Assembly: GCA_017983795.1 (NCBI GenBank)
Contig: JAGOAS010000024.1
Location: 1-62,758, forward strand
Direction: 5' to 3'
DNA: 62,758 bases
Source: Piscinibacter sp.
GTDB lineage: Bacteria > Pseudomonadota > Gammaproteobacteria > Burkholderiales > Burkholderiaceae_C
Below, piece after piece: positions 124 through 37,013 of the stretch. Within the stretch, counting starts at the first letter, position 1, and each line of letters starts with the position of its first letter. Below the pieces are notes generated by a model. That model was not told the origin of the DNA. It worked only from the letters and a program-made list of their open reading frames with translations, and ran no database searches. A program made the position numbers and the translations under genes.

Positions 124-1077
124 TCAGGCGAGGCTCAGCACGGCGGCCAGCAAGGCGGCGGCGAGCAGGTTGTGCAGCAGCGCGAGCGGCAACGGCAGCG
201 CCAGGGCGCTCGAGGCCATGCCGGCCGCCAGCTGGGCGGCGAGCAGCACCAGCAGCAGTACCGCCGTCCGGCGCCGGCCGTGGCGCCACGCCGCCCAGGC
301 GAGCGGCAGCAGCACGAGCATCACCATGAGCGCCGCATGGCGATGCAGGCTGTTGGCCAGCACACCGGCCGGGTTGCCGCCGGTCGCGGCGAGCACGGGC
401 TCGCGCCAGGGCGAGAGGCTGGCCCAGCCCGACTGCTGCACGGCCTCGCCCAGAGCGCAGTCGGCCCCGCCGCTGCAGGCGAGCCCGGCGTAAGACGCAC
501 TCGTCAGGCCGCCGAGCGCGATCTGCGCGGTCAGCAGCAGGGCCGCCAGCACAAGCATGCCGCGCGCGCCAGTAGTAGTAGTAGTAGTAGTAGTTGAGGC
601 CGCGCGCTCCGGCATGGCGAGCCGCACGCACAAGGCCAGCATCAGGAAGCCGCCGAGCAGGTTGCCCATCGCCACCGCCGGCACGCGTGCCGTGCTGCTC
701 CACCAGCCGAGCACGGCGAGAAACAACGCCAGCGCGAGGACGGCCAAGGCGATCAGCCCCTCGCGCACGAACAGCGGCTTGGAGCCCAGGCAGACCAGCA
801 CCATCGTGATCACCAGCAGCAGCGCCGTCGATGCCGTGATGCGGTGCGCCAGCCGCGCCAGCGCGGTGGCCGCCTGCGCCTCGTCCGACGCCGGCCGGCC
901 CTGCTGGGCGCGACGCAGGTCCTGGCCGTAGCAGGACGGCCAATCGCTGCAGCCCAGGCCGACCTTGCTCAGGCGCAGGAAGGCGCTCAGGCTCGTCACC
1001 GCGAGCACCAGCGCGGCGCACAGCAGGGCGAGGCGATGCAGGATGCGGCGGCGGCGATCGGTATGGCTCGTGTTCAT
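124..1077 (-). CDS. ctaA: Heme A synthase, CtaA/COX15 family
   Basis: This 317-aa polytopic membrane protein oxidises the methyl group of heme O to make heme A. It shows the family pattern: paired loop cysteines C43/C49 and C201/C207, and helix histidines H78, H245/H247 and H302 that fit heme ligands. The start chosen (ATG at 1075-1077) precedes a normal basic N-terminus; an upstream in-frame ATG would add 18 residues. It is divergent from the heme-copper operon at 1249, and a Dnr-type palindrome lies in the gap, so the two may be co-regulated. Residues 162-169 are eight threonines encoded by a perfect trinucleotide repeat in the loop between the two halves, which is not part of the normal family sequence. 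Family assignment is secure; which enzyme receives the heme A is inference. Confidence 0.9.
   Translation of the reverse strand: MNTSHTDRRRRILHRLALLCAALVLAVTSLSAFLRLSKVGLGCSDWPSCYGQDLRRAQQGRPASDEAQAATALARLAHRITASTALLLVITMVLVCLGSKPLFVREGLIALAVLALALFLAVLGWWSSTARVPAVAMGNLLGGFLMLALCVRLAMPERAASTTTTTTTTGARGMLVLAALLLTAQIALGGLTSASYAGLACSGGADCALGEAVQQSGWASLSPWREPVLAATGGNPAGVLANSLHRHAALMVMLVLLPLAWAAWRHGRRRTAVLLLVLLAAQLAAGMASSALALPLPLALLHNLLAAALLAAVLSLA
571..594. repeat. Perfect trinucleotide microsatellite (AGT)8 inside ctaA
   Basis: Eight uninterrupted AGT units on the + strand read as eight ACT threonine codons in ctaA. ACT is a rare codon in a genome this GC-rich, and no other run like this is seen in the window. 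Copy-number change would alter a loop length in three-base steps without a frameshift. Confidence 0.95.
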
Positions 1078-1148
1078 GACGCAGATCAGTAAGCGGCGAC
1101 ATCCTAGCGGCAGCCCCCGTTGCTGCTGCAATGCACCACGCGCATTTC

Positions 1149-1248: not shown

Positions 1249-1404
1249 ATGAGCCATACCGAACAAGACAACGAGCCGGTGCCCTGGATGCAGCAGCTGC
1301 TCGACAACCCCTTCCTGCTGCTGTTCCTCGGGGTGATGATCCCGATGGTGGTCTACATCCTGTGGGGTGTCATCGACATCCTCTCGATCCCGATGGCCAA
1401 GTGA
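1249..1404 (+). CDS. 51-aa single-pass membrane peptide heading the NorSY-like operon
   Basis: This small ORF has an acidic N-terminus (MSHTEQDNEPVPW), one hydrophobic helix at about residues 20-45, and a short polar tail. It begins 87 nt after the Dnr-type box and ends 39 nt before the CuA subunit gene, so it is the first gene of that operon. Small one-helix subunits are common in heme-copper enzymes. A role as an accessory or assembly subunit is inferred from position and topology only. No family was recognised. Confidence 0.75.
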   Translation: MSHTEQDNEPVPWMQQLLDNPFLLLFLGVMIPMVVYILWGVIDILSIPMAK

Positions 1405-1443
1405 CGGCTCGGTCTGCCCAATAAAACCCCGGAGGAGAAAACG

Positions 1444-1983
1444 ATGAGCGCCATCCTGCCCCCCTCAGAGCGCCTGTGGTGGAAACACCCGCTCGACCGC
1501 GTCGAAGGCACCTGGATCGCAATTGCCCTGGCCTGGTGCCTGACCATGTTCTTCATGATGGTCGGCTGGCACATCTACGGCAAGCAGAACCTGTCCACCG
1601 AGACCTACAAGACCACGCCCGAGAAGTTCTCGGCCAAGGCGCAGGCGATGGTCGACAAGTACACGGTGCGCACCGAGACCGCCGACAAGATTCCGGTGGT
1701 GGCGCCGCCGGCCGGCAGCGACGTCTATATCGTCGCGCGGCTGTGGAACTTCTGGCCCATCCTCGAGCTGGAGAAGGACAAGACCTACCGGCTGCACCTG
1801 ACCGCGATGGACTACAACCACGGCTTCTCGCTGCAGCCGGCGAACATCAACATCCAGGTCGTTCCGGGTTATGAGCACGTCGTGACGGTGACGCCGAACC
1901 AGTCGGGCACCTACTCGGTGGTGTGCAACGAATACTGCGGGATCGGCCATCACACGATGGTCGGCCGCGTCTACGTCAAGTGA
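1444..1983 (+). CDS. norS: CuA-containing heme-copper subunit II, NorS-like
   Basis: This 179-aa protein has one N-terminal membrane helix (about residues 22-44) and a periplasmic cupredoxin domain. All CuA ligands are present: H126 in DYNHGF, then C161, E163, C165, H169 and M172 in CNEYCGIGHHTM. It would accept electrons from a periplasmic donor and pass them to the subunit I encoded 14 nt downstream. It is shorter than typical aa3 oxidase subunit II, which usually has two helices. A GGAGGAG ribosome-binding site precedes the ATG. Cytochrome oxidase subunit II-like identity is secure. The NorS label rests on the catalytic-site features of its partner and on the SenC gene in the operon. Confidence 0.8.
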   Translation: MSAILPPSERLWWKHPLDRVEGTWIAIALAWCLTMFFMMVGWHIYGKQNLSTETYKTTPEKFSAKAQAMVDKYTVRTETADKIPVVAPPAGSDVYIVARLWNFWPILELEKDKTYRLHLTAMDYNHGFSLQPANINIQVVPGYEHVVTVTPNQSGTYSVVCNEYCGIGHHTMVGRVYVK

Positions 1984-1997
1984 GGGGGGAGGCAAAC

Positions 1998-3695
1998 ATG
2001 TCCAGCACGACCTACCGGACTTGCCCCCGCTCGGGGCTGCAGTTCGAAGCCAATGCCGAGAAGCTGATGCTCGCCAACGCCGTCGCGGCGGTGGTGTTCC
2101 TGCTCATCGGCGGCATCCTTGCCGTCGGCGTGGTGCTCACGCGCTGGCCGGCGATCCACTGGCTCGAGGCCGACACCTTCTACAAGGTGCTCACCGCGCA
2201 CGGCATCGACATGCTGATCTTCTGGATCATCTTCTTCGAGATCGCGGTGCTGTACTTCTGCTCGTCGACGCTGCTGCGCTGCCGATTGGCGACGCCGAAG
2301 ATCGCCTGGCTGGCCTTCGCGCTGATGGTGATCGGCGCGATCGTCAACAACGTCGCGGTCTACCAGGGCAGCTCGAGCGTGATGATGACGTCGTACGTGC
2401 CGATGATGGCCGCGCCGTCGTTCTACGCCGGCCTGATCCTGTTCGCGGTGGGTGCGCTGATCGGCTGCTTCGTCTTCCTCGGCACGCTGGTCGTCGCCAA
2501 GCGCGACAAGACCTACCAGGGCTCGGTGCCGCTGGTGACCTTCGGTGCCGTCACCGCCTGCATCATCGCGGTGTTCACCATCGCCTCGGGCGCGATCATC
2601 CTGATCCCGACCTTCCTGATGTCGGTGGGCCTGGTCGAGAAGGTCGACCCGCTCGTCTACCGCACCATCTGGTGGGCCTTCGGCCACTCGTCGCAGCAGA
2701 TCAACGTCGCGGCGCACATCTCGATCTGGTACGCGGTGGCGGCGATCGCCTTCGGTGCCAAGCCCATGAGCGAGCGCGTCAGCCGCGGCGCCTTCCTGCT
2801 CTACATCCTGTTCCTGCAACTGGCCAGCGCGCACCACCTGCTCGCCGACCCGGGTCTGTCGACCGGCTGGAAGGTCGTCAACACCAGCTACTTCATGTAC
2901 TTCGCGGTGCTGGCCTCGATGATCCACGGCCTGACCATCCCCGGCGCGATGGAAGTCGCGCAGCGCGCCAAGGGCTTCAACAAGGGCCTGTTCGAGTGGC
3001 TGCGCAAGGCGCCCTGGGGCAACCCGGTGTTCTCCGGCGTGTTCATCTCGATCATCGGCTTCGGCTTCCTCGGCGGCATCTCCGGCGTGATGATGGGCAC
3101 CGAGCAGCTGAACATGATCATCCACAACACCATCTACGTGCCGGGGCACTTCCACGCCACGGTGGTGGTGGGCACCACGCTGTCGTTCATGGCGCTGACC
3201 TACTTCCTGATCCCGGTGCTGTTCAAGCGCGAGATGATCGCCCCGGGCCTGGCGAAGCTGCAGCCCTACCTGTTCGGCCTGTCGATGTACTTCTTCTGCC
3301 TGGTGATGATGGGCGCGGGCACCCTGGGCGTCTCGCGGCGCCACTGGGACATGGCCTTCCAGGGCGCGGCGCTGGCCTACCCGTGGCCGGGCGCGGCCTA
3401 CCTGATGATGGGCCTGGTCGGCATCGCCGGCATCGCAGCCATCACCGGCGGCGCGATCTACATCTACGTGACGGTCGGCTCGCTGCTGTGGGGCAAGAAG
3501 CTCGAGGCCGGCGCCACCAGCGCCAACTTCACGCCGATCCCGCGCAGCGCCCCGACGGTGGTCGCGCAGAGCTACGGCTCGGCCGGCTTCGCGGCGCCGG
3601 GCACCTTCATGCTCGCGATGGTGTTCCTGGTTGCCTTCATCCTGTACTACTTCATCAACTGGAAGTACCTCTCGCAGGTCTGGGGCCTGAGCTGA
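1998..3695 (+). CDS. norY: Heme-copper superfamily subunit I, NorY-like putative NO reductase
   Basis: This 565-aa polytopic protein keeps all six canonical histidines: H68 (helix II), H230 (helix VI), H279/H280 (helix VII), and H384/H386 in PGHFHA (helix X). The helix VI sequence is GHSSQQIN, so the position of the oxidase cross-linked tyrosine (GHPEVY) is Q234, and the family glutamate is serine. Loss of that tyrosine is a hallmark of NO-reducing branches rather than O2 reductases. With the CuA subunit upstream and SenC downstream, the layout resembles the norSY-senC clusters described in ammonia oxidisers. ATG at 1998 is preceded by a GGGGGGAGG ribosome-binding site; a longer in-frame extension overlaps the upstream gene and is rejected. 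NO as substrate is inference. Confidence 0.75.
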   Translation: MSSTTYRTCPRSGLQFEANAEKLMLANAVAAVVFLLIGGILAVGVVLTRWPAIHWLEADTFYKVLTAHGIDMLIFWIIFFEIAVLYFCSSTLLRCRLATPKIAWLAFALMVIGAIVNNVAVYQGSSSVMMTSYVPMMAAPSFYAGLILFAVGALIGCFVFLGTLVVAKRDKTYQGSVPLVTFGAVTACIIAVFTIASGAIILIPTFLMSVGLVEKVDPLVYRTIWWAFGHSSQQINVAAHISIWYAVAAIAFGAKPMSERVSRGAFLLYILFLQLASAHHLLADPGLSTGWKVVNTSYFMYFAVLASMIHGLTIPGAMEVAQRAKGFNKGLFEWLRKAPWGNPVFSGVFISIIGFGFLGGISGVMMGTEQLNMIIHNTIYVPGHFHATVVVGTTLSFMALTYFLIPVLFKREMIAPGLAKLQPYLFGLSMYFFCLVMMGAGTLGVSRRHWDMAFQGAALAYPWPGAAYLMMGLVGIAGIAAITGGAIYIYVTVGSLLWGKKLEAGATSANFTPIPRSAPTVVAQSYGSAGFAAPGTFMLAMVFLVAFILYYFINWKYLSQVWGLS

Positions 3696-3711
3696 GCCGG
3701 GAGCTGCCGCG

Positions 3712-4614
3712 ATGAACACGACCACCCTCGCGAGCACCACTCGCCCCAGCCCCGCACAGGTGGCGCGGCTGGTGCTGGGCCTGTTCAAGCTGCGCATCGG
3801 CGTGCTCATCATGGTCACGGCGCTGGTCGGCCTGGCGGTCACGCCGGGCGTCTCGCCCAGCCTCGTGCAGGTGGCGGTGCTGGCGCTGGCGGTGCTGGGC
3901 GCCTCGGCCGCCGCCGGCGCCTTCAACCAGTACTACGAGGCCGAGAGCGACCGGCTGATGGCCCGCACTCGCGGGCGCGCCTTCGCCAGCGGCGCGCTGC
4001 CGCGTTCGCGGGCCTGGCTGCTGCTGATCGGCGCGCTGCTGGCGCTGTCGGTCGGCGCGGCCTGGCAGGTACTCAACGGCAGCGCGGCGCTCTACATCTT
4101 CCTCGGCGCGTTCTTCTACGGCGTGGTCTACACCGTGTGGCTGAAGCGGCGCAGCTGGACCAACATCGTGATCGGCGGCCTGTCGGGCAGCTTCGCGGTG
4201 CTGGCCGGCGCGGCGGCGGTGAACCCGGCGCTCGGCGCGCAGCCGCTGCTGCTCGCGCTGGTGCTGTTCCTCTGGACGCCGCCGCACTTCTGGAGCCTGG
4301 CGATCGCCGGCTCGGCCGACTACGCCGCTGCCGGCGTGCCCATGCTGCCGGTGGTGGTGGGCCCGCAGCGCGCCGCGCGCGTGGTGTTCGCGAGCACGCT
4401 CGCACTGGTGGCGGCTTCGCTGCTGCCGGGCGCCTTCGGCGCCGGGCCGCTGTACATGGCCGGGGCGGCCATCGGCGGCGGCTGGTTCGTCTACAAGTCG
4501 TGGCGCTTGGCGCGCGCGCCCAGCCGCCAGACGGCGTTGGGCTCCTTCTTCGCCTCCTTGCTGCAACTGAGCCTATTGCTGGGCGCGGCCAGCATCGACG
4601 GCTTGATACGGTAG
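3712..4614 (+). CDS. ctaB: Protoheme IX farnesyltransferase (heme O synthase)
   Basis: This 300-aa UbiA-family membrane prenyltransferase converts heme B to heme O. It has the prenyl-diphosphate-binding segment NQYYEAESDRLMARTRGR (about residues 68-85) and the later LFLWTPPHFW motif, with multiple membrane helices. It sits 16 nt after the subunit I gene, in the same operon, and ctaA lies just upstream on the other strand. The subunit I protein may therefore carry heme O or heme A rather than heme B. That link is inferred from gene order. Confidence 0.93.
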   Translation: MNTTTLASTTRPSPAQVARLVLGLFKLRIGVLIMVTALVGLAVTPGVSPSLVQVAVLALAVLGASAAAGAFNQYYEAESDRLMARTRGRAFASGALPRSRAWLLLIGALLALSVGAAWQVLNGSAALYIFLGAFFYGVVYTVWLKRRSWTNIVIGGLSGSFAVLAGAAAVNPALGAQPLLLALVLFLWTPPHFWSLAIAGSADYAAAGVPMLPVVVGPQRAARVVFASTLALVAASLLPGAFGAGPLYMAGAAIGGGWFVYKSWRLARAPSRQTALGSFFASLLQLSLLLGAASIDGLIR

Positions 4615-4634
4615 GCCGCACAGGCCGGGCGCCC

Positions 4635-5522
4635 ATGGCAGGCCGTCTCCCGCTTCTCGCATCGATCGCAGCCGGGCTGCTCGGGCTGCATGCTGCCGTG
4701 TGGGGCCAGGCCTGGCCTGCCCCCACGCCGCCCGGGCAACCGGCACGCCTGAGCACGGCGGCGGCCGACGAGCCGCCGCCCGTGCGCTCACTCGAACGCG
4801 AAGCTGCGCTGCGCGCCAGCCAGGCCGCCATCGGCCGCTCGGTGAGCGCGCACACGCTGCTCGACCGCGACGGCCGCCCGGTGCCGCTCACGCGCTACCG
4901 CGGCAAGCCGCTGCTGGTGAGCTTCATCTATACCGGCTGCTTCCAGGTCTGCCCGACCAGCACGCGCTCGCTGCAGCGCTCGCTGCAGCCGCTGCGCGAG
5001 GCCTTCGGCGACGACACCTTCAACGTGGTGAGCGTCGGCTTCAACCAGCCCGCCGATTCGCCGCAGGCGATGCGCGCCTTCGCCGCGCAGCACCGCATCG
5101 CCGAGCCGAACTGGGATTTCCTCAGTCCGTCGCCGGCCGCGGTGGACGCGCTGACGCGCGACTTCGGCTTCAGCTACCTCGCCACGCCGGCGGGCTTCGA
5201 CCACGTCGTCGGCGTCAGCGTGGTCGACGCCGAGGGGCGCGTCTACGCCCATGTCTACGGCGACGTGATGACGGCCGACCAGCTCGGCGAGCCGCTGCGC
5301 CGCCTGCTGCGCGGCGCGCCGCCCGCCGCCGGCGAAAGTGCGCTGGCCAACCTGGTCGAGCGCGTGCGCATCATCTGCACCGTCTACGACGCCGAGACCG
5401 GCCGCTACCGCACCAACTACGGCCTGATCCTGGAGATCGCCGGCGGCCTGGGCTTCCTGCTCACCATGCTGGTCTTCTTCGTCGGCGAGGCGCGCAAGCG
5501 CCGGCGAGGCCCGCTTGCGTGA
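4635..5522 (+). CDS. senC: SCO1/SenC copper chaperone with C-terminal membrane extension
   Basis: This 295-aa protein starts with a hydrophobic signal or anchor, followed by a thioredoxin-fold SCO domain. The copper-binding residues are C102 and C106 in GCFQVC, and H190. SCO proteins deliver copper to CuA centres or act as thiol-disulfide reductants, and the neighbouring subunit II needs CuA. After the SCO domain (about residue 230) there is an unusual tail with ICTVYDAETGRYRTNYG and a membrane helix at about 264-284, giving a second anchor. The stop overlaps the next gene by 8 nt, suggesting coupled translation. Confidence 0.88.
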   Translation: MAGRLPLLASIAAGLLGLHAAVWGQAWPAPTPPGQPARLSTAAADEPPPVRSLEREAALRASQAAIGRSVSAHTLLDRDGRPVPLTRYRGKPLLVSFIYTGCFQVCPTSTRSLQRSLQPLREAFGDDTFNVVSVGFNQPADSPQAMRAFAAQHRIAEPNWDFLSPSPAAVDALTRDFGFSYLATPAGFDHVVGVSVVDAEGRVYAHVYGDVMTADQLGEPLRRLLRGAPPAAGESALANLVERVRIICTVYDAETGRYRTNYGLILEIAGGLGFLLTMLVFFVGEARKRRRGPLA

Positions 5523-7047
5523 AGCCCTGCAGTCCGGCTGGCGCGCGCTCGAGCACGGTTTCGACGCCGCTTTCGGCGCCGCGCTGAACCCGCTGCGCCA
5601 CCTCGGCGCGCTCGGCTTCCTGATGTTCTGGCTGCTCGCCGCCAGCGGCATCTACCTCTATGCCGTGCTCGACACCTCGGCGGAGGGCGCCTGGCATTCG
5701 ATCGACGCGCTCTCGCGCCAGCAGTGGTACCTGGGCGGCGTGCTGCGCAGCCTGCACCGCTACGCCGCCGATGCCTTCGTGCTGCTGATGCTGGCGCACC
5801 TGCTGCGCGAATGGCTGTTCGGCCACTGGCAGGGCTTTCGCCGCTTCTCCTGGCTGACCGGCGTGCCGCTGCTGCTGTTCGCCTTCGTCAGCGCGATCGG
5901 CGGCTTCTGGCTCAACTGGGATCAGCTCGGCCAGTTCTCCGCCATCGCCACCGCCGAATGGCTCGACTGGCTGCCGCTGTTCGCCACGCCGCTGACGCGC
6001 AACTTCCTCAACGCCGCGGCGGTCAGCGATCGCCTCTTCTCGCTGTTCGTCTTCATCCACCTCGGCGTGCCGCTGCTGCTGGTGTTCGGGCTGTGGTTCC
6101 ACATCCAGCGCATCAGCCGCGCCGCGGTCTTCCCGCCGCGCATGCTGGCCGCGGGCAGCTTCGCGGCACTGCTCGCGCTGGCCGTGGCGCAGCCGGTGAT
6201 GAGCCAGGCGCCGGCCAATCTCGCCGTGGTGCCGGGGCCGCTCGCCTTCGACTGGCTGCTGCTGTTCGTGCACCCGCTGGTCAACGCCAGCTCGGCCGGC
6301 GTGGTGTGGTGGCTGCTGTCGGCCACGCTCGTCGCCCTGTTCGCCCTGCCCTTCCTGCCGCGGCGCAGCGTGCCGGTGCCGGTGGCGGTGGTCGATGCGG
6401 CCAACTGCAACGGCTGCCGGCGCTGCTTCGACGACTGCCCCTACGCGGCCGTCACCATGATTCCGCACCCGAACAAGCGCATCGGCCGCGAGATGGCGCA
6501 GGTCAACGCCGACCTGTGCGCGAGCTGCGGCATCTGTGTCGGCGCCTGCCCTTCGTCGACGCCCTTCCGCAGCGTCGCCGAACTGGTCACCGGCATCGAC
6601 ATGCCCAGCGCGCCCATCAGCGCGCTGCGCCGCCAACTGCAGCAGGCCCTGGCCGCATCGCGGGCCGAGCACCCCATCGTCGTCTTCGGCTGCGAGTGCG
6701 GCGCGCGCGTCGATACGCTGGCCGCGCCCGACGTCGCACCCTTCAGCCTGATGTGCACCGGCGCGCTGCCGCCCTCCTTCGTCGAATACGCGCTGCGCGA
6801 CGGCGCGGCGGCGGTGCTCGTCGCCGGCTGCCGCGAAGCCGGCTGCGAGTTCCGCCTCGGCCAGCGCTGGAGCGCGCAGCGCCTGAGCGGCGAACGCGAG
6901 CCGCACCTGCGCGCCTCGGTGCCGCGCGAGCGCGTCGCCACCGCCTGGGGCGACGCCGGCGACGAAGCCGCCCTGCATACTGCCTTGACCCAATTGCGCG
7001 AGCGCCTGCGTGGCGCCGCGCCTCTCGAACGAGCCGCCCATGGATGA
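5515..7047 (+). CDS. Fusion: diheme cytochrome b, 2x[4Fe-4S] ferredoxin, MvhD-like domain
   Basis: This 510-aa protein has three modules. Residues 1-280 form a cytochrome b/b6-like membrane domain with two H-x13-H pairs (H81/H95 and H182/H196), fitting two b hemes. Residues 290-350 carry two ferredoxin clusters (C298/301/304/308 and C335/338/341/345). Residues 385-450 resemble the iron-sulfur MvhD/FlpD domain (C393, C395, C414, C439, C444). The start is TTG at 5515, overlapping senC by 8 nt; no better ATG is near. The layout suggests electron transfer between a soluble iron-sulfur donor and the membrane quinone pool or the neighbouring heme-copper proteins. The partner is unknown. Confidence 0.8.
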   Translation: MREALQSGWRALEHGFDAAFGAALNPLRHLGALGFLMFWLLAASGIYLYAVLDTSAEGAWHSIDALSRQQWYLGGVLRSLHRYAADAFVLLMLAHLLREWLFGHWQGFRRFSWLTGVPLLLFAFVSAIGGFWLNWDQLGQFSAIATAEWLDWLPLFATPLTRNFLNAAAVSDRLFSLFVFIHLGVPLLLVFGLWFHIQRISRAAVFPPRMLAAGSFAALLALAVAQPVMSQAPANLAVVPGPLAFDWLLLFVHPLVNASSAGVVWWLLSATLVALFALPFLPRRSVPVPVAVVDAANCNGCRRCFDDCPYAAVTMIPHPNKRIGREMAQVNADLCASCGICVGACPSSTPFRSVAELVTGIDMPSAPISALRRQLQQALAASRAEHPIVVFGCECGARVDTLAAPDVAPFSLMCTGALPPSFVEYALRDGAAAVLVAGCREAGCEFRLGQRWSAQRLSGEREPHLRASVPRERVATAWGDAGDEAALHTALTQLRERLRGAAPLERAAHG

Positions 7048-7561
7048 GCGCAAGACCTCCCTCACACCCGCCGCCTGGATCGGCCAGGTTGCCCTGTACG
7101 GCCTGTTCGCGCTGGCCATCGGCGTGTTCTCGCACTGGCCGCCCTACCGCCACCTGGGCGAAGACCAGGCGCTGATCACGCTGAGCTTCAGCCACACCGG
7201 CCAGCCGGTGTCCGAGTGCCGGCCGCACACCGCCGAGGAACTCGCCAAGCTGCCGCCCAACATGCGCTCGCCGCTGCTGTGCCCGCGCGAGCGCTCGCCC
7301 ATCGTCGTCGAGCTCGACGTCGACGGCCAGCCGGCGCTGCGCCAGACGGCGAAGCCCTCGGGCCTGTCCAAGGACGGCGCGGCTTCCATCTACCATCGGC
7401 TGTCGCTGAGCGCCGGCACACACCGCGTCGCCGTGCGCATGAGCGACGACGCGCGCCGCAGCGACTTCGGCCATGTGAGCGAACAGACCGTGACGCTCAA
7501 GCCGGCCCAGATCCTGGTGATCGACTTCGACACCGCGACCCAGACCATCACGCTGCAATGA
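7040..7561 (+). CDS. Small membrane-anchored protein of unknown function
   Basis: A 173-aa protein has one N-terminal helix (about residues 11-30) followed by a soluble domain rich in beta-type sequence that contains two cysteines (CRPH and LLCPRE). ATG at 7040 is chosen over a GTG at 7010 because it overlaps the previous stop by 8 nt, as in the rest of the operon. Its stop overlaps the next ATG (ATGA). It is lodged between two redox genes and may be an assembly or accessory subunit, but no family was recognised. Confidence 0.75.
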   Translation: MDERKTSLTPAAWIGQVALYGLFALAIGVFSHWPPYRHLGEDQALITLSFSHTGQPVSECRPHTAEELAKLPPNMRSPLLCPRERSPIVVELDVDGQPALRQTAKPSGLSKDGAASIYHRLSLSAGTHRVAVRMSDDARRSDFGHVSEQTVTLKPAQILVIDFDTATQTITLQ

Positions 7562-9000
7562 ACACCCTGCCTTCCGGCGCGGCGATCGCACCGCACCCCA
7601 CCCTCTCATCCGCCCGCGCGACGATCAGCGCGGCCACCCACGCCTACGCCTTGCCCGTGCCCACCGACGCGCGCCGCACGCTGGCGCGCGGCTGGCTGTG
7701 GCTGGCGCTGGCCGCGCTGATCGGCTCGGGCCTGTTCTCGGTGCTGCTGGTGCTGTCGCGCACACCGGGGCTGAACAAGCTCTTCCCGGTGGCCGATTTC
7801 TTCCGCGTCGCGCTGGTGGTGCACGTCGATCTCTCGGTGCTGGTGTGGTTCGTCGCGCTCGCCGGCCTGATCTGGAGCCTGCACGGCACGGCGCGCCGCG
7901 GCGCCTGGGGCTGGGCGGCGCTGGGCCTGTGCGGTGCCGGCGCGGCGCTGATGTCGCTGGCGCCCTTCCTCGGCAGCGGCGAGCCCATCATGGCCAACTA
8001 CATCCCGGTGCTCGACGGCGCGCCCTTCCTTGCCGGCCTCGTCGTCTTCGGCGCCGGCGCGGCCCTGCTGGTGCTGCACGGCCTGCTGACGGCACCCAAG
8101 ATCGGCCTCGCCTTCGACGGCGCCGGCGCGCTGCACTTCGGGCTGAATGCCAGCGTGGTGGCCGGCGCGGTGGCGCTGCTCGCCTTCGCCTGGTCGTGGG
8201 CGGTGCTGCCGGCCTCGCTGGCCGGCCGCGCCTACTACGAGATCCTGTTCTGGGGCGGCGGCCACGCGCTGCAGTTCACCTGGACGCTGCTGATGCTGGT
8301 GGGCTGGCTGTGGCTGGCCGGCGCCTGCGGCGCACGAGCGCCGCTCAGCCCGCGCGTCGCGCTGGGCCTGTTCGCGCTGGCGCTGGTGAGCGTGTTCGTC
8401 ACGCCCTATGCCTACCTGGCGCACGACATCGCTTCGGTCGAGCACCGCAACCTGCACACCTGGGGCATGCGCTTCGGCGGCGGGCTGGCCATCGCGCCGA
8501 TCGCGCTCGCCGTGGTGCTGGGCCTGCGCGGCCTCGCACCGCTGGCTCCCGCACAGAAGCCGCTGCGCGCCGCGCTGCTCGCCTCGATGCTGCTGTTCGC
8601 CTCCGGCGGGATGATCGGCGTGTTCATCGCCGGCAGCAACGTGCGCATCCCGGCGCACTATCACGGCTGCATCGTCGGCGTGACGCTGGCGCTGATGGGC
8701 CTCGTCTACCACCTGCTGCCGCGTCTGGGCTACCGCGCCCCCGAGGGGCGCCTCGCGACGCTGCAGCCCACGCTGTACGGCGCCGGCCAGCTGATGCACA
8801 TCCTCGGCCTGGTGTGGTCGGGCGGCTACGGCGTGCAGCGCAAGGTCGCCGGCGCCGAGCAGGTGCTGCGCAGCAGCTCCGAGATCGCCGGCATGGGCCT
8901 GATGGGCCTGGGTGGGCTGATCGCCATCGTCGGCGGCCTGCTGTTCGTGGTGGTGACGATGCGCGCGATGCGCCAGCCGGCCGGGGAGGCGCAGGCATGA
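7558..9000 (+). CDS. Divergent heme-copper subunit I-like protein, apparently missing helix VII histidines
   Basis: This 480-aa polytopic protein is only distantly similar to NorB, cbb3 and oxidase subunit I. It keeps H89 (helix II), H236 in GGGHALQF (helix VI) and H367/H369 in IPAHYHG (helix X), enough for two hemes and one metal ligand. Where NorB has the helix VII pair GHHFYF, this protein reads TPYAYLAHD (about residues 282-290), so two ligands of the second metal seem to be lost. H289, H296 and H300 lie nearby and might substitute. The helix VI tyrosine is also absent. Start and stop overlap neighbours as ATGA. It could be a divergent NO reductase or a non-catalytic electron conduit. Confidence 0.7.
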   Translation: MNTLPSGAAIAPHPTLSSARATISAATHAYALPVPTDARRTLARGWLWLALAALIGSGLFSVLLVLSRTPGLNKLFPVADFFRVALVVHVDLSVLVWFVALAGLIWSLHGTARRGAWGWAALGLCGAGAALMSLAPFLGSGEPIMANYIPVLDGAPFLAGLVVFGAGAALLVLHGLLTAPKIGLAFDGAGALHFGLNASVVAGAVALLAFAWSWAVLPASLAGRAYYEILFWGGGHALQFTWTLLMLVGWLWLAGACGARAPLSPRVALGLFALALVSVFVTPYAYLAHDIASVEHRNLHTWGMRFGGGLAIAPIALAVVLGLRGLAPLAPAQKPLRAALLASMLLFASGGMIGVFIAGSNVRIPAHYHGCIVGVTLALMGLVYHLLPRLGYRAPEGRLATLQPTLYGAGQLMHILGLVWSGGYGVQRKVAGAEQVLRSSSEIAGMGLMGLGGLIAIVGGLLFVVVTMRAMRQPAGEAQA

Positions 9001-10901
9001 AACGATTGCAAGCGGCGCTGCAGTGGCTGTTCCTGCGCGTCGAGGATGTCTTCAACCGTGCCTTCGGTGATCGTCTCAACCCGCTGTACCACCTCGGCGC
9101 GATCACCTTCTTCCTGTTCTGGGTGGTGGCCGGCAGCGGCCTGTACCTCTACGCCTTCTTCGAGACCGGCGTGGCCGACGCGCACGCCTCGGTGGAGGCG
9201 CTGACGCACCACCAGTGGTTCGCCGGCGGCATCCTGCGCAGCCTGCACCGCTACGCCTCCGACGCGATGGTGGTGACCATGCTGCTGCACCTGCTGCGCC
9301 ACTTCGCCTTCGACCGCTTCCGCGGCTTCCGCTGGTTCTCGTGGCTGTCGGGCGTGGCGCTGATCTGGGGCGTGTACGTCAGCGGCATCAACGGCTACAT
9401 GCTGCCCTGGGACCGCCTGGCGCAGTATGTGATCACCGCCAGCTTCGAGTGGATCGACTGGCTGCCCGGCTTCGGCGGCACGCTGATGCGCAACCTGATC
9501 CACCCGAGCAGCATCACCGACCGCTTCTTCTCGCTGCTCGCCTTCATGCACATCGGCATCCCGCTGGTGGTGCTGCTGCTGATGTTCATCCACGTGCAGC
9601 GCGTGCCCAAGGCGCGCACGCATCCGCCGCGCGCCATCATGCTCAGCCTCGGCGGCACGCTGCTGCTGCTGGCGCTGCTGCGCCCGGTGCTGAGCCAGGG
9701 CGGCGCCGCCGACCTCGCCAGCGCGGTGCCGAAGCTGCAGCTCGACTGGTTCTACCTGCCGCTCTTCCCGCTGTTCGACCTCTGGCCCTTCGGCGCGGTG
9801 TGGGCGCTGGTGGTGGCCGGCACGTGGTTGCTCGCCCTGCTGCCCTGGCTGCCGCCGCAGTGGCGGCGCGGCCGCGCCGGCGAGTTCAATCTCACGCTGC
9901 ACCCTTCCACGCAGCCGCTGGCGGTGCGCAGCGGCGAGACCCTGCTCGAAGCCGGCCTGCGCCAGGGCCTGGCGCTGCCCTACGAGTGCCGCAATGGCGG
10001 CTGCGGCGTGTGCATGTGCACGGTGCTGCACGGCACGGTCGATCACGGCATCTACCAGCGCAGCGCGCTGCCCGATGCGCTGCGCGCCCAGGGCAAGACG
10101 CTGATGTGCTGCGCCACGCCGCTGTCGGACGTCGACATCGAAGTCGAGACGATGAGCGAGGCGCGCGCGCCGCTGCCCGTGCACGAGGCGCGCGTGGTGC
10201 GCCTGGACCGTTTCTCCGACGACGTGATCCGCCTGATGCTCGCGCTGCCCGACGGCCAGGACCTGCCCTTCCGCGCCGGCCAGTACATCAACATCGTGCT
10301 CGACGACGGCCAGCGCCGCGCCTTCTCCTTCGCCAACCCGCCGCAGGTGCGCGGCCACATCGAGCTGCACGTGCGGCGCATCCCCGGCGGGCGCTTCACC
10401 GGCCAGGTGTTCACGCACATGAAGGTCGGCGACACGCTGCGCTTCGAGGGCCCGCTGGGCGACTTCACGCTGCGCGAGGGCGAGGCGCCGATCCTGTTCG
10501 TCGCCGGGGCGACCGGCTTCGCGCCGATCAAGAGCATCGTCGAGGACGCCTTCGCGCGCGGCATCACGCGGCCGATGCGCCTGTACTGGGGCGTGCGCAA
10601 GCGCGCCGACCTCTACGCGCTGGATCTGGCCGAGCAGTGGCAGCGCGAGCACAGCAACTTCCACGTCGTGCCGGTGCTCTCCGAGCCCGATCCCGCCGGA
10701 GCCTGGAGCGGCCGCACCGGCCTGGTCCACGAAGCCATGCTGGCCGACTTCCCCGACCTGACGGGCCACGAGGTCTACGTCTGCGGTTCGGTGAAGATGG
10801 TCGAAGCGGCGGTGCCGGCCTTCCTCGCCCAGGGCCTGGGCGAAGGCTTCTGCTTCAGCGACGCGTTCGTGCCTTCGGCGCCGCGGCCGGGCGCGGCTTA
10901 A
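8997..10901 (+). CDS. Fusion: diheme cytochrome b, [2Fe-2S] ferredoxin, FAD/NAD(P)H reductase
   Basis: This 634-aa protein begins with a four-helix cytochrome b module carrying H84/H98 and H185/H199 (two H-x13-H pairs), similar to the fusion at 5515. Residues 296-390 are a plant-type [2Fe-2S] ferredoxin (C331, C336, C339, and C371 or C372). Residues 395-634 are a ferredoxin-NADP reductase-type module with RAFSFA (441-446, flavin), GATGFAP (504-510, pyridine nucleotide) and VYVCGS. The order suggests NAD(P)H to FAD to [2Fe-2S] to hemes b. It overlaps the upstream gene by ATGA and ends the operon. Module identities are clear; electron direction and acceptor are inferred. Confidence 0.85.
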   Translation: MKRLQAALQWLFLRVEDVFNRAFGDRLNPLYHLGAITFFLFWVVAGSGLYLYAFFETGVADAHASVEALTHHQWFAGGILRSLHRYASDAMVVTMLLHLLRHFAFDRFRGFRWFSWLSGVALIWGVYVSGINGYMLPWDRLAQYVITASFEWIDWLPGFGGTLMRNLIHPSSITDRFFSLLAFMHIGIPLVVLLLMFIHVQRVPKARTHPPRAIMLSLGGTLLLLALLRPVLSQGGAADLASAVPKLQLDWFYLPLFPLFDLWPFGAVWALVVAGTWLLALLPWLPPQWRRGRAGEFNLTLHPSTQPLAVRSGETLLEAGLRQGLALPYECRNGGCGVCMCTVLHGTVDHGIYQRSALPDALRAQGKTLMCCATPLSDVDIEVETMSEARAPLPVHEARVVRLDRFSDDVIRLMLALPDGQDLPFRAGQYINIVLDDGQRRAFSFANPPQVRGHIELHVRRIPGGRFTGQVFTHMKVGDTLRFEGPLGDFTLREGEAPILFVAGATGFAPIKSIVEDAFARGITRPMRLYWGVRKRADLYALDLAEQWQREHSNFHVVPVLSEPDPAGAWSGRTGLVHEAMLADFPDLTGHEVYVCGSVKMVEAAVPAFLAQGLGEGFCFSDAFVPSAPRPGAA

Positions 10902-11456
10902 GCTTTCGGCGCGGGCGCGGCGGGCGCGGCCCCGTGGAGGCTCCTGCGGAGTCGGCCGGCTGACGCCGGCTGCCCTGCGCTACTCGTGTCGGGGTCGCGC
11001 CGCCGAACTCGCTACGCTCACTTCGTTCGCTGCGCTCGGACAGCCGCGGCGAGCATGAAAACGAAGCGCGCGTTCCGCGCGCCGACCCCGACACTGCGTT
11101 GCTCGGCGACTCCCAAGTCGCCCCCACAGGGCCGCGCCCGCCGCGCTGAACCGATGATGGCCTGCGAACAAGTGGCATGCCACCTCTGGTTCAGCAAAGG
11201 GCCGTGCGGGCCGTTCGCGGCGCGCCTATGAAGCGCCGAGGAGCACAGGGCTTGCGGCCCGCGCGCGTCAGCGCGCTTCGTGAACTGACTTGCCGCCTCG
11301 TGTTTGAGCGAAACGAACGTCAGTGAGTGCAGCGAGTTAGGCGGCGGGCCGCGAGACCGCGCACCGCAGGGAAGCCGGCGCAGCCGGCCGCTTCATCGAA
11401 GCGCCGCGGGCGGCCCGCTCGGCCCTTTGCCGCTCAAACTCACCCCGGCATCGACC
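10902..11456. other. 555-nt gene-free stretch between the redox operon and ubiT
   Basis: No credible gene is seen. It holds a 12-bp inverted repeat (10986-10997 with 11083-11094), a perfect 12-bp palindrome GTGGCATGCCAC at 11172-11183, and the large hairpin listed at 11195-11429. A motif close to AACTCGCTACGCTCACT at about 11009 recurs in inverted, diverged form near 11320-11337. Because the flanking genes converge here, the stretch may contain a bidirectional terminator. Confidence 0.7.
11195..11429. repeat. Large imperfect hairpin element with 19-bp end arms
   Basis: The ends 11195-11213 and 11411-11429 are inverted copies matching at 18 of 19 positions. Pairing continues inward in patches, for example GCCGCCT near 11292 with AGGCGGC near 11338, so most of the 235 nt can fold on itself. 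It codes for nothing recognisable and lies between convergent genes. It may be a MITE-like remnant or an RNA hairpin. Confidence 0.7.
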
Positions 11457-11924
11457 TCAGTGCGACGCCGCGCGCCGCGGCCACAGCGGGCCGATGGCAT
11501 CGAGGGTGTTCTTGAGCACCAAGCCAAGCTCGGTGTCGCCTTCCATCACCAGCGTGCGCTCGAAGAACATGCGGTCGGGGTCGTCCTCGCCGCGCAGCAG
11601 GCGCAGGTAGCTCGCGCCGGTGGCGGCGATGCGCAGTGCGGTGTCGCCGTCCTCGCCGGCGCTGGCGAAGCCGGCCGGCGTGATGCGCAGGCGCACGCGC
11701 AGGCCGAAGTCGGTGACGGCCAGTTCCACGCAGTGGCCTTCGAGCGCGCGGCGCGCGTCTTCGGGCAGGCGTGGCAGCAGCACGCGGTCGAGCACGCGCG
11801 CGGCGAGCAGCGAGGGCGGCGTCACCGGCAGCCGCTCGACGAGTCCGCGCACGCGCCGGTGCAGCGGCACCAGCAGTTGCGGCAGGCCGGCCGGCACGCC
11901 GCGGTCGAGTGAGGAAGGGTTCAT
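11457..11924 (-). CDS. ubiT: SCP2-domain accessory factor of O2-independent ubiquinone synthesis
   Basis: A 155-aa protein with a single SCP2-type lipid-binding domain matches the UbiT (YhbT) family in size and context. UbiT is a lipid carrier needed with UbiU and UbiV for anaerobic ubiquinone synthesis. The start ATG at 11924 overlaps the ubiV stop (ATGA); an upstream in-frame ATG would add six residues. It is the third gene of ubiU-ubiV-ubiT. The order and overlaps indicate one transcript starting near the Dnr-type box at 14018. Confidence 0.85.
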   Translation of the reverse strand: MNPSSLDRGVPAGLPQLLVPLHRRVRGLVERLPVTPPSLLAARVLDRVLLPRLPEDARRALEGHCVELAVTDFGLRVRLRITPAGFASAGEDGDTALRIAATGASYLRLLRGEDDPDRMFFERTLVMEGDTELGLVLKNTLDAIGPLWPRRAASH

Positions 11925-12874
11925 GCTGCGCTCTCGCTCCATGCCATGCCCGGCGCGCGCCGCGCATAGCCGTTGCTGAACGGCCCCGGCACGCCGAGGC
12001 CGGCCCAGGCGGCGGCGCGCTCACCGGGCGCAGCGCCATCGTTCATCACCGCATCGAAGTCGGCCAGCACCTGGCCGAAGCCCTGCGCGCAGGGCGACAG
12101 GCGCAGCCGCGACACGCCGGCCGCACGCAGCGCCGCGCCGTCGCCGAGCAGGTTCTGCACCGTGGCCGATTGCGTCTGCGTGCCGTTGAGCACCAGGAAG
12201 GGCTGGCCCTCGGAGGACGAGAGCAGCAGCCCGTCGGGGTCGGCGATGCAGCGGAAGCCGCAGTCGTCCTTGGCCACGCGGTGGTGGCGCGCGGTGAAGC
12301 AGCGCGCCGAGAAGGCCAGCGGCAGGCGGCCGAACACCCAGGCCTCGGTGGCGATGGCCTCGCCGGCGCTCGCGCGCACCGGATCGGCCGGCGGGTTGAT
12401 CAGCGCCAGCGCATCGAGCGAGAGCTCCACCGGCGCCACCCAGCGCGAAGCGCCGAGATCGGCATGCTCGACCAGCGCCTCGCGGCTGTAGATGTTGATG
12501 TGCGGCCCCAGCACCAGCGGCACGCGGCCGGCGAGCAGCTGCAGCGCCGAGGCGTCGGCAGCCTCGACCGCGAACTCCTGCTGCTCGGCCTGGCGCTCGA
12601 GCAGGCGCAGGTCGGCCTCGGTCTCGATCAGCGCCTGCGCGGCCAGCACCACGTCCTTGCCGGCGGCGCGCAGCTCGCGGGCCAGCGCCAGCCAGTCTTC
12701 CAGGCGCAGCTCGCGGCGGCGCGCGCAGACGGTCTCGCCGAGCACGATGGTGTCGGCCGGGCTCTCGGCCAGGTCGGCATAGAACTGCAGCAGCGTTTCG
12801 CGCGACCAGTGGTAGAGCAGCGGCCCGACGCTCAGGGCCAGGCGCGGGGATTCGGACATGGTCATCGCATTCAT
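11921..12874 (-). CDS. ubiV: U32-family O2-independent ubiquinone hydroxylation factor UbiV
   Basis: This 317-aa peptidase U32-family protein carries the UbiV cysteine pattern: C50, then ARCFTARHH followed by DDCGFRC (C-x12-C-x3-C, about residues 190-210), which ligates a [4Fe-4S] cluster in the family. With UbiU it hydroxylates the ubiquinone ring without O2. The start overlaps the ubiU stop (ATGA at 12871-12874); shorter starts at internal methionines 4 and 6 are possible. Its place beside nir and nor genes fits a need for ubiquinone during nitrite respiration. Confidence 0.87.
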   Translation of the reverse strand: MNAMTMSESPRLALSVGPLLYHWSRETLLQFYADLAESPADTIVLGETVCARRRELRLEDWLALARELRAAGKDVVLAAQALIETEADLRLLERQAEQQEFAVEAADASALQLLAGRVPLVLGPHINIYSREALVEHADLGASRWVAPVELSLDALALINPPADPVRASAGEAIATEAWVFGRLPLAFSARCFTARHHRVAKDDCGFRCIADPDGLLLSSSEGQPFLVLNGTQTQSATVQNLLGDGAALRAAGVSRLRLSPCAQGFGQVLADFDAVMNDGAAPGERAAAWAGLGVPGPFSNGYARRAPGMAWSESAA

Positions 12875-13887
12875 CGCCACGGGCGGTTGTAGGCGCCGAG
12901 CGTGTGCTGCTGGCCTTCGGCGTGGCGCGCCAGCGTGGCCGACCACTCGGGCTGCACGCTGTAGCGGCCGACGGCGGCAGCGGCCTGGTCGATCGCGGCG
13001 CGCCACACGCGCGTCACCTGCTCGACATAGGCGGCGCTGCGCTGGCGGCCTTCGATCTTGATGGCCTTCACGCCCATGCCGATCAGCTCGGGCAGGATGG
13101 CCAGCGTATTCAGGCTGGTCGGCTCCTCGAGCGCGTAGTCGCGCTCGCCCTGCACGTCGAAGCGGCCCTTGCACAGCGTCGGGTAGCCGCGCGGCTCGTC
13201 GGGCGCATAGCAGTCGATCAGCACGCCGTTCAGGCGCGCCTGCACGCCGGCCGCGCCCTCCTGCCAGCGCACCGCCGAGGGCGGCGAGCACACGCCGGCG
13301 TTGTTGGGCGATTGCCCGGTGGCGTAGGACGACAGCGCGCAGCGCCCCTCCACCATCACGCACAGGCTGCCGAAGCCGAACACCTCGATGTCGACGTCGG
13401 TGTTCCTGATCACGTTGCCGACCTGCTGCAGCGTCAGCACGCGCGGCAGCACGGCGCGCTGGATGCCGTAGCGCTGGCGGTAGAACTCGATGGCGGCATG
13501 GCTGGTCGCCGAGGCCTGCACCGACAGGTGCAGGCGCAGCTGCGGGTGCGTGTCGCGGCAGTAGGCCATCACCGCGGTGTCGGCGACGATCAGCGCGTCG
13601 GCGCCCAGCGCCACCGCCTTGTCGACCGCGCGGCGCCAGGGGCCGGGGTCGCGCGCGTCGGCGAAGGTGTTGAGCGCCATCAAGACCTTGGCGCCGCGCG
13701 CATGCGCGTAGGCCACGCCCTCGCGCACCTGCGCGTCGTCGAAATTGAGCCCGGCGAAGTTGCGCGCGTTGGTCGCGTCCTTCAGCCCGAGGTAGACCGC
13801 GTCGGCGCCGGCGTCCACCGCCGCCTGCAGCGCGCGCAGCGAACCGGCCGGGCACACCAGCTCGGGCCGTGCCCCTTGATCTTTCAT
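12871..13887 (-). CDS. ubiU: U32-family O2-independent ubiquinone hydroxylation factor UbiU
   Basis: A 338-aa U32-family protein with the UbiU cluster cysteines C176, C183, C200 and C239 (LCVMVEGRC, GVC, TLCKGR). It forms a heterodimer with UbiV and performs O2-independent ring hydroxylation. The start is ATG at 13887, preceded by AAGGAACG; a longer frame reaching 14031 would run through the Dnr-type box and is rejected. The promoter region is shared divergently with nirS, about 137 nt from the box centre. Confidence 0.9.
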   Translation of the reverse strand: MKDQGARPELVCPAGSLRALQAAVDAGADAVYLGLKDATNARNFAGLNFDDAQVREGVAYAHARGAKVLMALNTFADARDPGPWRRAVDKAVALGADALIVADTAVMAYCRDTHPQLRLHLSVQASATSHAAIEFYRQRYGIQRAVLPRVLTLQQVGNVIRNTDVDIEVFGFGSLCVMVEGRCALSSYATGQSPNNAGVCSPPSAVRWQEGAAGVQARLNGVLIDCYAPDEPRGYPTLCKGRFDVQGERDYALEEPTSLNTLAILPELIGMGVKAIKIEGRQRSAAYVEQVTRVWRAAIDQAAAAVGRYSVQPEWSATLARHAEGQQHTLGAYNRPWR

Positions 13888-14017
13888 CAGCGTTCCTTCG
13901 CCCTGAGCGAACCGGCGGACTGTAGGCAGATCCGCCACGCCGACTTTGAGGCTCGGCAAACCGGCGCGACTCTCCCGGCACCCGCTGCGCCGGGGGGCGG
14001 AGGGGACACGCGCGGCC

Positions 14018-14031
14018 TTGAACTGGTTCAA
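14018..14031. promoter_or_regulatory. Dnr/FNR-type palindrome between ubiU and nirS
   Basis: TTGAACTGGTTCAA, identical to the site at 1149, lies in the 214-nt divergent gap. Its centre is about 77 nt before the nirS ATG and 137 nt before the ubiU ATG. It can plausibly serve both directions. The candidate binder is the regulator at 30745-31443. Confidence 0.85.

Positions 14032-14080: not shown

Positions 14081-15832
<1,752 letters not shown>

Positions 15833-35152: not shown

Positions 35153-37013
<1,861 letters not shown>

Follow-up and report, generated by a model that had tools for sequence, protein, structure and literature searches.

A conserved gene set places cytochrome b fusions and a predicted CuB-less haem-copper oxidase homologue beside a putative eNOR-type nitric oxide reductase

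Contig JAGOAS010000024.1 of Piscinibacter sp. (assembly GCA_017983795.1), 62,758 nucleotides (nt) in length and called the window below, carries nine tightly packed genes between positions 1249 and 10901, all read rightward, as the original prediction from the letters of the DNA had described. These genes, here g0 to g8, combine a putative nitric oxide (NO) reductase of the eNOR type with two cytochrome b fusion proteins, a small anchored protein and a predicted homologue of haem-copper oxidase subunit I that keeps the haem ligands and has no CuB histidine pair. The same set recurs in the same order in many other genomes. We tentatively favour, as plausible rather than probable, the reading that this is an eNOR with cytochrome b modules that trade electrons with iron-sulfur and NAD(P)H partners in the cytoplasm; the partner, the direction of flow and the physical complex are what we infer from sequence. 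The genes of the set are as follows.

1249 to 1404, plus strand: g0, a 51-residue one-helix protein without family match; D19, Y36 and W39 are conserved in 62 sequences
1444 to 1983, plus strand: g1, putative CuA subunit II of eNOR (COX2 match)
1998 to 3695, plus strand: g2, putative eNOR subunit I, B-family haem-copper type with Gln234 at the Tyr position (COX1 match)
3712 to 4614, plus strand: g3, haem O synthase CyoE/CtaB (TIGR01473 over cut-off)
4635 to 5522, plus strand: g4, SCO/SenC copper chaperone (PF02630)
5515 to 7047, plus strand: g5, fusion of cytochrome b, two [4Fe-4S] sites and an MvhD/FlpD domain (family profiles)
7040 to 7561, plus strand: g6, anchored protein predicted to combine one helix and a beta-sandwich; two Cys are invariant, and no family is known
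7558 to 9000, plus strand: g7, second subunit I-like protein, a haem-copper oxidase homologue without the CuB His pair (COX1 at 43 bits)
8997 to 10901, plus strand: g8, fusion of cytochrome b, a [2Fe-2S] domain and an FAD/NAD(P)H reductase (family profiles)

From g0 to g4 the genes are separated by gaps of 39, 14, 16 and 20 nt; from g4 on they overlap by 8, 8, 4 and 4 nt. The start of g4 was placed at the first ATG of a reading frame that stays open further upstream, and g5 starts with TTG.

Conservation of the set was followed in a scan of genome contigs, in which 401 stretches encoded a relative at E ≤ 1e-3; the 80 best of these served as loci, with gene presence judged by tblastn. A locus was called uncut if the first gene was present and more than 300 nt followed the last; this held for 58 of the 80. 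Because 46 of these 58 loci share the exact order g0-g1-g2-g3-g4-g5-g6-g7-g8 in one direction, the order is shared beyond chance. A search for it in other genomes had been set beforehand as a check, and the arrangement proved not to be confined to the genome of the window. The remaining 12 uncut loci comprise two without g3, two without g5, two without both, two without g8, and four in which g8-g6 precede g5 and g7. The full order was seen in isolates such as Comamonas granuli, Simplicispira hankyongi, Acidovorax sp. 210-6 and Curvibacter sp. PAE-UM; the locus of Castellaniella defragrans has neither g3 nor g5. Both fusions were found in 52 of the uncut loci, g5 alone in two and g8 alone in four. 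Since each of the 58 has one or the other, g5 and g8 look, by gene content, as if they were interchangeable entry points.

A class sample of 370 genomes gave a similar picture. At a threshold of E ≤ 1e-80, eNOR was found in 35 genomes, and in 29 of these a cytochrome b/iron-sulfur fusion lies inside the eNOR cluster. This amounts to 29 of the 31 clusters that could be judged, as three were cut by a contig end (G162, G247 and G293) and the flank of a fourth was too short (G242). Among the 29, the fusion of G253 lies on a second contig beginning in g4, and G219 and G344 were read from match coordinates only. The other two judgeable genomes differ: G199 has a g5-g6-g7 group on the eNOR contig at a distance of about 14 kb, and in G297 no such group was seen in the sequence surrounding eNOR. 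Wherever genes were annotated around the fusion (27 of the 29 clusters), g6 was present (27/27). Searched by profile, g7 was found in 49 of the 370 genomes; 29 genomes had both eNOR and g7, six eNOR only, 20 g7 only and 315 neither (Fisher 3e-24, uncorrected for kinship). A sample of 60 relatives, own genome included, had g7 in eight genomes, counting its own. No g7 match was obtained at E ≤ 1e-20 among 72,556 plasmid records.

In a phylum sample of 299 genomes, eNOR was found in 19. Ten of these loci were examined: five have g5 and g6, three lack them within the flank and two are cut. With g5 and g6 in five of the eight judgeable clusters and absent from three, the core beyond eNOR therefore consists of g5 plus g6 and is not universal; g7 and g8 occur in fewer.

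The assignment of the core rests on g2. Its nearest solved structures are ba3 (B-family) oxidases, and Gln234 aligns with the catalytic Tyr237 of Thermus ba3, which bears out the Tyr-less subunit I of the original prediction. Gln occupies this position in all 118 aligned homologues (some loci are included twice), and the haem and CuB histidines are all kept, with one gap at H68. The table of active-site residues in PMC8756737 (Table A4, modified from Hemp and Gennis) assigns Y to oxygen reductases, E to cNOR and qNOR, N to sNOR, Q to eNOR, D to gNOR and N to CuANOR. By its signature residue and B-family ligands, the core fits an eNOR-type NO reductase. The CuA subunit g1, directly upstream of g2, has the ligands H126, C161, E163, C165, H169 and M172 in 62 of 62 sequences. 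In g4, C110, C114 and H198 are conserved (numbered from an upstream start), and hydropathy gives hydrophobic segments at its N- and C-terminus. The position and size of g0 suggest a likeness to subunit IIa of Thermus ba3.

This arrangement agrees with what is described for eNOR, the ba3-a1 subtype (PMC8879329) of B-family oxidases: Gln in place of Tyr, a CuA subunit of the cupredoxin type encoded just upstream of subunit I, SCO in the operon (noted earlier for a Tyr-less ba3-a1, PMC6431628) and a denitrification context. It differs in its further genes, namely those for one or two cytochrome b fusions, for a beta-sandwich anchor and for the CuB-less oxidase homologue, which the available parts of these accounts do not mention for eNOR. 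We consider it highly improbable that the core is instead NorSY/sNOR as found in ammonia oxidisers, or else an ordinary aa3 oxidase together with its assembly genes. The cluster norSY-senC-orf1 does contain a CuA subunit, a Tyr-less B-family subunit I and SenC (PMC4940428, PMC6967387), and genes for haem O and haem A synthases stand alongside the core here. However, sNOR has Asn at the active site and forms a four-gene cluster (PMC4940428), whereas the residue in g2 homologues is Gln in 118 of 118, neither Asn nor Tyr. It is because Gln, not Asn, replaces the Tyr that the NorSY label of the original prediction fails and that of eNOR fits; its idea of an NO-reductase-type core stands. Without the catalytic Tyr, g2 was also set aside as an oxygen-reducing haem-copper oxidase. 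The original prediction would have failed had the genes formed a standard aa3 assembly unit; with a B-family core in which Gln replaces the Tyr, and a score of 74.5 with the CtaD model TIGR02891 (cut-off 670.75), they do not.

The two fusion proteins share a cytochrome b half. The haem histidines H81, H95, H182 and H196 of g5 and H84, H98, H185 and H199 of g8 are conserved (73 g5 and 71 g8 sequences), as are 12 Cys in the 73 g5 sequences, eight of them to hold the two [4Fe-4S] clusters and the other four within MvhD, and the four [2Fe-2S] Cys in the 71 g8 sequences. From these ligands, two b haems are expected in each protein. The b domains of g5 (74 sequences) and g8 (71 sequences) form two clean clades with support of 1.0, and because the halves separate in this way, one duplication with exchange of the tails is the likely origin. 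The four histidines, two bis-His b haems, are those of b6/bc-type cytochrome b; that cytochrome works with a Rieske protein, whereas none of the nine operon proteins gave a Rieske match with family profiles, and the C-termini of g5 and g8 are Fe-S/MvhD and ferredoxin reductase domains, respectively. Residues 290-503 of g5 match positions 571-773 of NF040770 with 80.5 bits (cut-off 1100). This corresponds to the C-terminal ferredoxin-MvhD part of HdrA2; g5 differs in lacking the HdrA flavin domain, only those profile positions being matched, and in being fused to a membrane cytochrome b. Residues 308-624 of g8 match BenC with 196.6 bits (cut-off 430) and the solved structure 1krh; the C-terminal half thus resembles the [2Fe-2S]/FAD/NAD reductases of the benzoate-dioxygenase type, from which g8 differs by the cytochrome b in front. 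Shorter relatives of this reductase half, at 44-52%, are found in many of 62 matching genomes among the 370.

As homologues of cytochrome b, g5 and g8 are expected to have six helices and a C-terminus on the inner side. The Fe-S and flavin domains would then face the cytoplasm, and the b haems would provide a path through the membrane. A D-W pair after helix E is kept in both proteins (D246-W247 in g5, D250-W251 in g8). One further arrangement was seen at locus L099 (420-9282), where g5 and g7, without g6, lie downstream of an A-family oxidase cluster (COX3, SCO, COX2, COX1) in which the Tyr is present (YSHPAVY). This suggests a natural swap, in which the module would serve haem-copper enzymes in general.

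What is new here, at the level of sequence, is g7, a subunit I homologue with haem ligands but without the CuB histidine pair; neither its missing ligands nor the divergent ctaA described below was part of the original prediction. In an alignment of 110 rows, counted over rows with a letter at the position, the haem ligands H89 (108/108), H367 (110/110) and H369 (109/110) are kept, as is the helix VI histidine H236 (109/109). The HH of helix VII in g2 is HH in none of the 107 rows with letters there, one His occurring in two rows; these columns instead hold Ala, Ile, Leu or Val, followed at the second position by Tyr in 98 rows. Phe stands at the catalytic Tyr position in 106 rows. A profile alignment shifts the HH pair one residue earlier and again shows no HH, so that a three-His CuB-type metal site was not found. 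Ten residues beyond the pair, H296 is His in 89 rows and is a possible alternative ligand. The structure model of g7 (pLDDT 87.3) has a ba3 oxidase as best Foldseek match (E 1.6e-8), and 1xme (Thermus ba3) aligns with a TM-score of 0.71 by query length. By predicted fold and haem ligands, both common to haem-copper oxidase subunit I, g7 is assigned to the haem-copper superfamily, from whose catalytic members it is set apart by the lack of the helix VII CuB pair and the Tyr. NnrS was tried as an alternative identity and gave no match at E ≤ 10.

The g7 family is wider than the operon. Relatives occur near A-family oxidases or, fused to TPR, near multihaem cytochromes. The subunits I beside such relatives have HPEVY or HPAVY and HH in six of the six inspected; three of these A-family subunits were scanned with the CtaD model and scored 559-563 bits (cut-off 670.75). 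TPR-fused relatives at L024 (8456-10411) and L025 (10299-12347) lie by a multihaem cytochrome c and ResB/CcsA-type maturation genes, and at L150 (10496-12760) a NosR-like FMN-binding/Fer4 protein is near a g7 relative and an A-family oxidase. For g6, relationship to cupredoxins or Rieske proteins was considered and dropped, as it had no Pfam match and no fold match in the PDB at E ≤ 0.001.

The surroundings of the operon contain the following features.

124 to 1131, minus strand: ctaA, CtaA/COX15 haem A synthase, divergent to the operon (Pfam PF02628, E 1.2e-36)
1149 to 1162, no strand: FNR/Dnr-type palindrome TTGAACTGGTTCAA (TTGA-N6-TCAA pattern)
11457 to 14031, minus strand: SCP2 protein (UbiT-like), UbiV and U32 protein (UbiU-like) of anaerobic ubiquinone synthesis, between the operon and nirS
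14102 to 15832, plus strand: NirS cytochrome cd1 nitrite reductase (PF02239, E 8.6e-150)
35153 to 36631, minus strand: NorB-like subunit I, second NO reductase candidate of the window (motif HLWVEGTWE)

Together with the regulatory box, these neighbours place the operon, by predicted gene content, in a denitrification context. The Dnr-type box that had been taken as a sign of control by anoxia or NO is indeed in front of g0, and in 25 of 62 regions, the window included, the 300 nt upstream of the first gene contain the pattern TTGA-N6-TCAA; mononucleotide shuffles gave a mean of 0.13, and among 4192 300-mers tiled over these loci, 69 had it. NirS lies 3 kb downstream of the operon, with the ubiquinone genes in between. 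A ctaA cluster is near 43 of the 80 loci, mostly upstream and divergent. Other neighbour clusters over the 80 loci were a CRP/FNR-type regulator (19), a cytochrome d1 protein (18), UbiU/V-type U32 proteins (12 and 10), UbiD (12), SCP2 (10) and a UbiX-type flavoprotein (10). Each cluster was named from one example, at least one locus is present twice, and the counts are lower bounds, the simple gene caller having missed g4, g6 and g8 in a test on the window. Two side observations concern the flanks: ctaA contains a run of eight Thr codons at about 557-600 of the window, visible in the translation as a trinucleotide repeat (a repeat search of 500-700, by a method that leaves out trinucleotide runs, found nothing), and the stretch 10980-11440 between g8 and the ubiquinone genes appears by eye to be GC-rich with repeat-like words.

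A nitrite reductase was found in all 18 operon genomes searched: 15 had a NirS-type match (E < 1e-140) and four NirK over cut-off, one genome having both. Among the 60 relatives, a cytochrome d1 match (E ≤ 1e-40) was present in 26, in 8/8 with g7 versus 18/52 without (Fisher 6e-4, uncorrected for kinship). With a cNorB query, five of the 18 operon genomes contained cNorB at over 70% identity (one copy with an internal stop), and eight had weaker, mostly qNOR-sized matches. No cNOR or qNOR match was obtained at E ≤ 1e-15 in the other five (G034, G045, G046, G130 and G431), where a divergent one could be missed; in these five no NO reductase candidate other than the eNOR operon came up at the threshold used. 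One of them is Curvibacter sp. PAE-UM (L062, G431), which has the full set together with NirS. In the window itself, the protein at 35153-36631, which we take to be NorB-like by its motif, had no NCBIfam match at E ≤ 1e-20.

From these data we propose the following model. The putative eNOR, g1-g2, would be used at low oxygen or under NO in denitrification, with g0, haem O synthase and SCO serving its assembly. The redox domains of g5 and g8 would be cytoplasmic, with the two b haems reaching across the membrane. Electrons would enter from an iron-sulfur donor at the MvhD domain of g5 and from NAD(P)H at the flavin of g8, and would cross the membrane to the outer CuA/eNOR side or to quinone near it, a route that would add to or bypass bc1 and cytochrome c. 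In this model g6 may be a periplasmic partner of cytochrome b, and g7, which would hold haems but lacks a complete CuB site, may help to transfer electrons or move protons rather than act as a catalytic oxidase or NO reductase. The idea that NAD(P)H or a soluble iron-sulfur donor could be linked to NO reduction thus gains an anatomy suited to such entry; the route itself stays at the level of inference.

Several points weigh against this model. Gene neighbourhood does not prove contact; the support comes from sequence and gene context, and the MvhD domain has no identified partner. The topology is taken from cytochrome b homology, whereas plain hydropathy counts seven segments for g5, of which one is likely the ef loop, and misses one helix (B) in g8. 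eNOR is stated to use reduced cytochrome c (PMC8879329), and CuA need not take electrons from g5 or g8. The module is not needed for eNOR, as three of the eight judgeable phylum-sample clusters have no cytochrome b fusion in the flank. Nor is g7 specific to eNOR: six of the 35 eNOR genomes lack it, and 20 of the 49 g7 genomes have no eNOR at threshold. Finally, 37 of the 62 upstream regions are without an exact FNR-type box, and the genome of the window also has the NorB-like reductase.

It is possible, if on the doubtful side, that the fusions run the other way or apart from eNOR, as quinol/quinone:NAD(P)+ or iron-sulfur oxidoreductases that keep redox pools in balance when oxygen is absent, the operon being shared since the same condition calls for both. 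The D-W pair after helix E looks, by eye, like the PEWY stretch of quinone sites; genes for anaerobic ubiquinone synthesis lie close by; and a 'novel cytochrome' has been proposed for anaerobic redox balance in Accumulibacter (PMC2289847). In genome G130, a full-length g8 homologue stands alone (contig 1, 2181636-2183495, in L222), far from the eNOR operon, whose cluster showed g5 only. This explanation must contend with the conserved placement of the fusions inside eNOR clusters (46 of 58 uncut loci identical in order, 29 of 35 clusters with a fusion), by genes for CuA, SCO and haem synthesis.

More far-reaching, and to our minds rather unlikely, is a membrane supercomplex in which NO would be reduced directly by electrons from the cytoplasm, supplied by NAD(P)H and an iron-sulfur donor of low potential via two interchangeable cytochrome b fusions, or in which quinol electrons would be bifurcated to NO and NAD(P)+, the CuB-less g7 being the electron- or proton-transfer subunit. 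Bifurcation from quinol taken by itself, a Q-cycle without Rieske, we regard as decidedly unlikely: cytochrome b would oxidise quinol, pass one electron to CuA/eNOR and NO and send the other via the b haems to MvhD or FAD, yielding NAD(P)H or a reduced iron-sulfur protein. One operon does combine two b haems with a high-potential acceptor, CuA, and with cytoplasmic domains of low potential, and textbook potentials would allow the energetics. Rieske/cytochrome b complexes of anammox bacteria have been proposed to make NAD(P)H (PMC12954380). However, no Rieske match and no sign of a bifurcating site were found in the nine proteins, and operons with g5 only or g8 only exist, so that both tails are not needed together.

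In the open literature that we searched, neither an eNOR carrying such modules nor a haem-copper family devoid of CuB is described; the search did not cover the main eNOR paper (Murali 2024, PNAS), which may describe the set. The well-studied NO reductases take their electrons from cytochrome c or quinol. The conserved set hints at an undescribed way of powering NO removal; if the model is right, it would be a different way to power NO reduction, and to tie it to the proton motive force or detach it from that force, in organisms that are possible sources of N2O. The g7 family, for its part, would offer a natural case for testing what is left of a haem-copper oxidase after loss of the catalytic metal site. 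Both claims can be tested in cultured bacteria.

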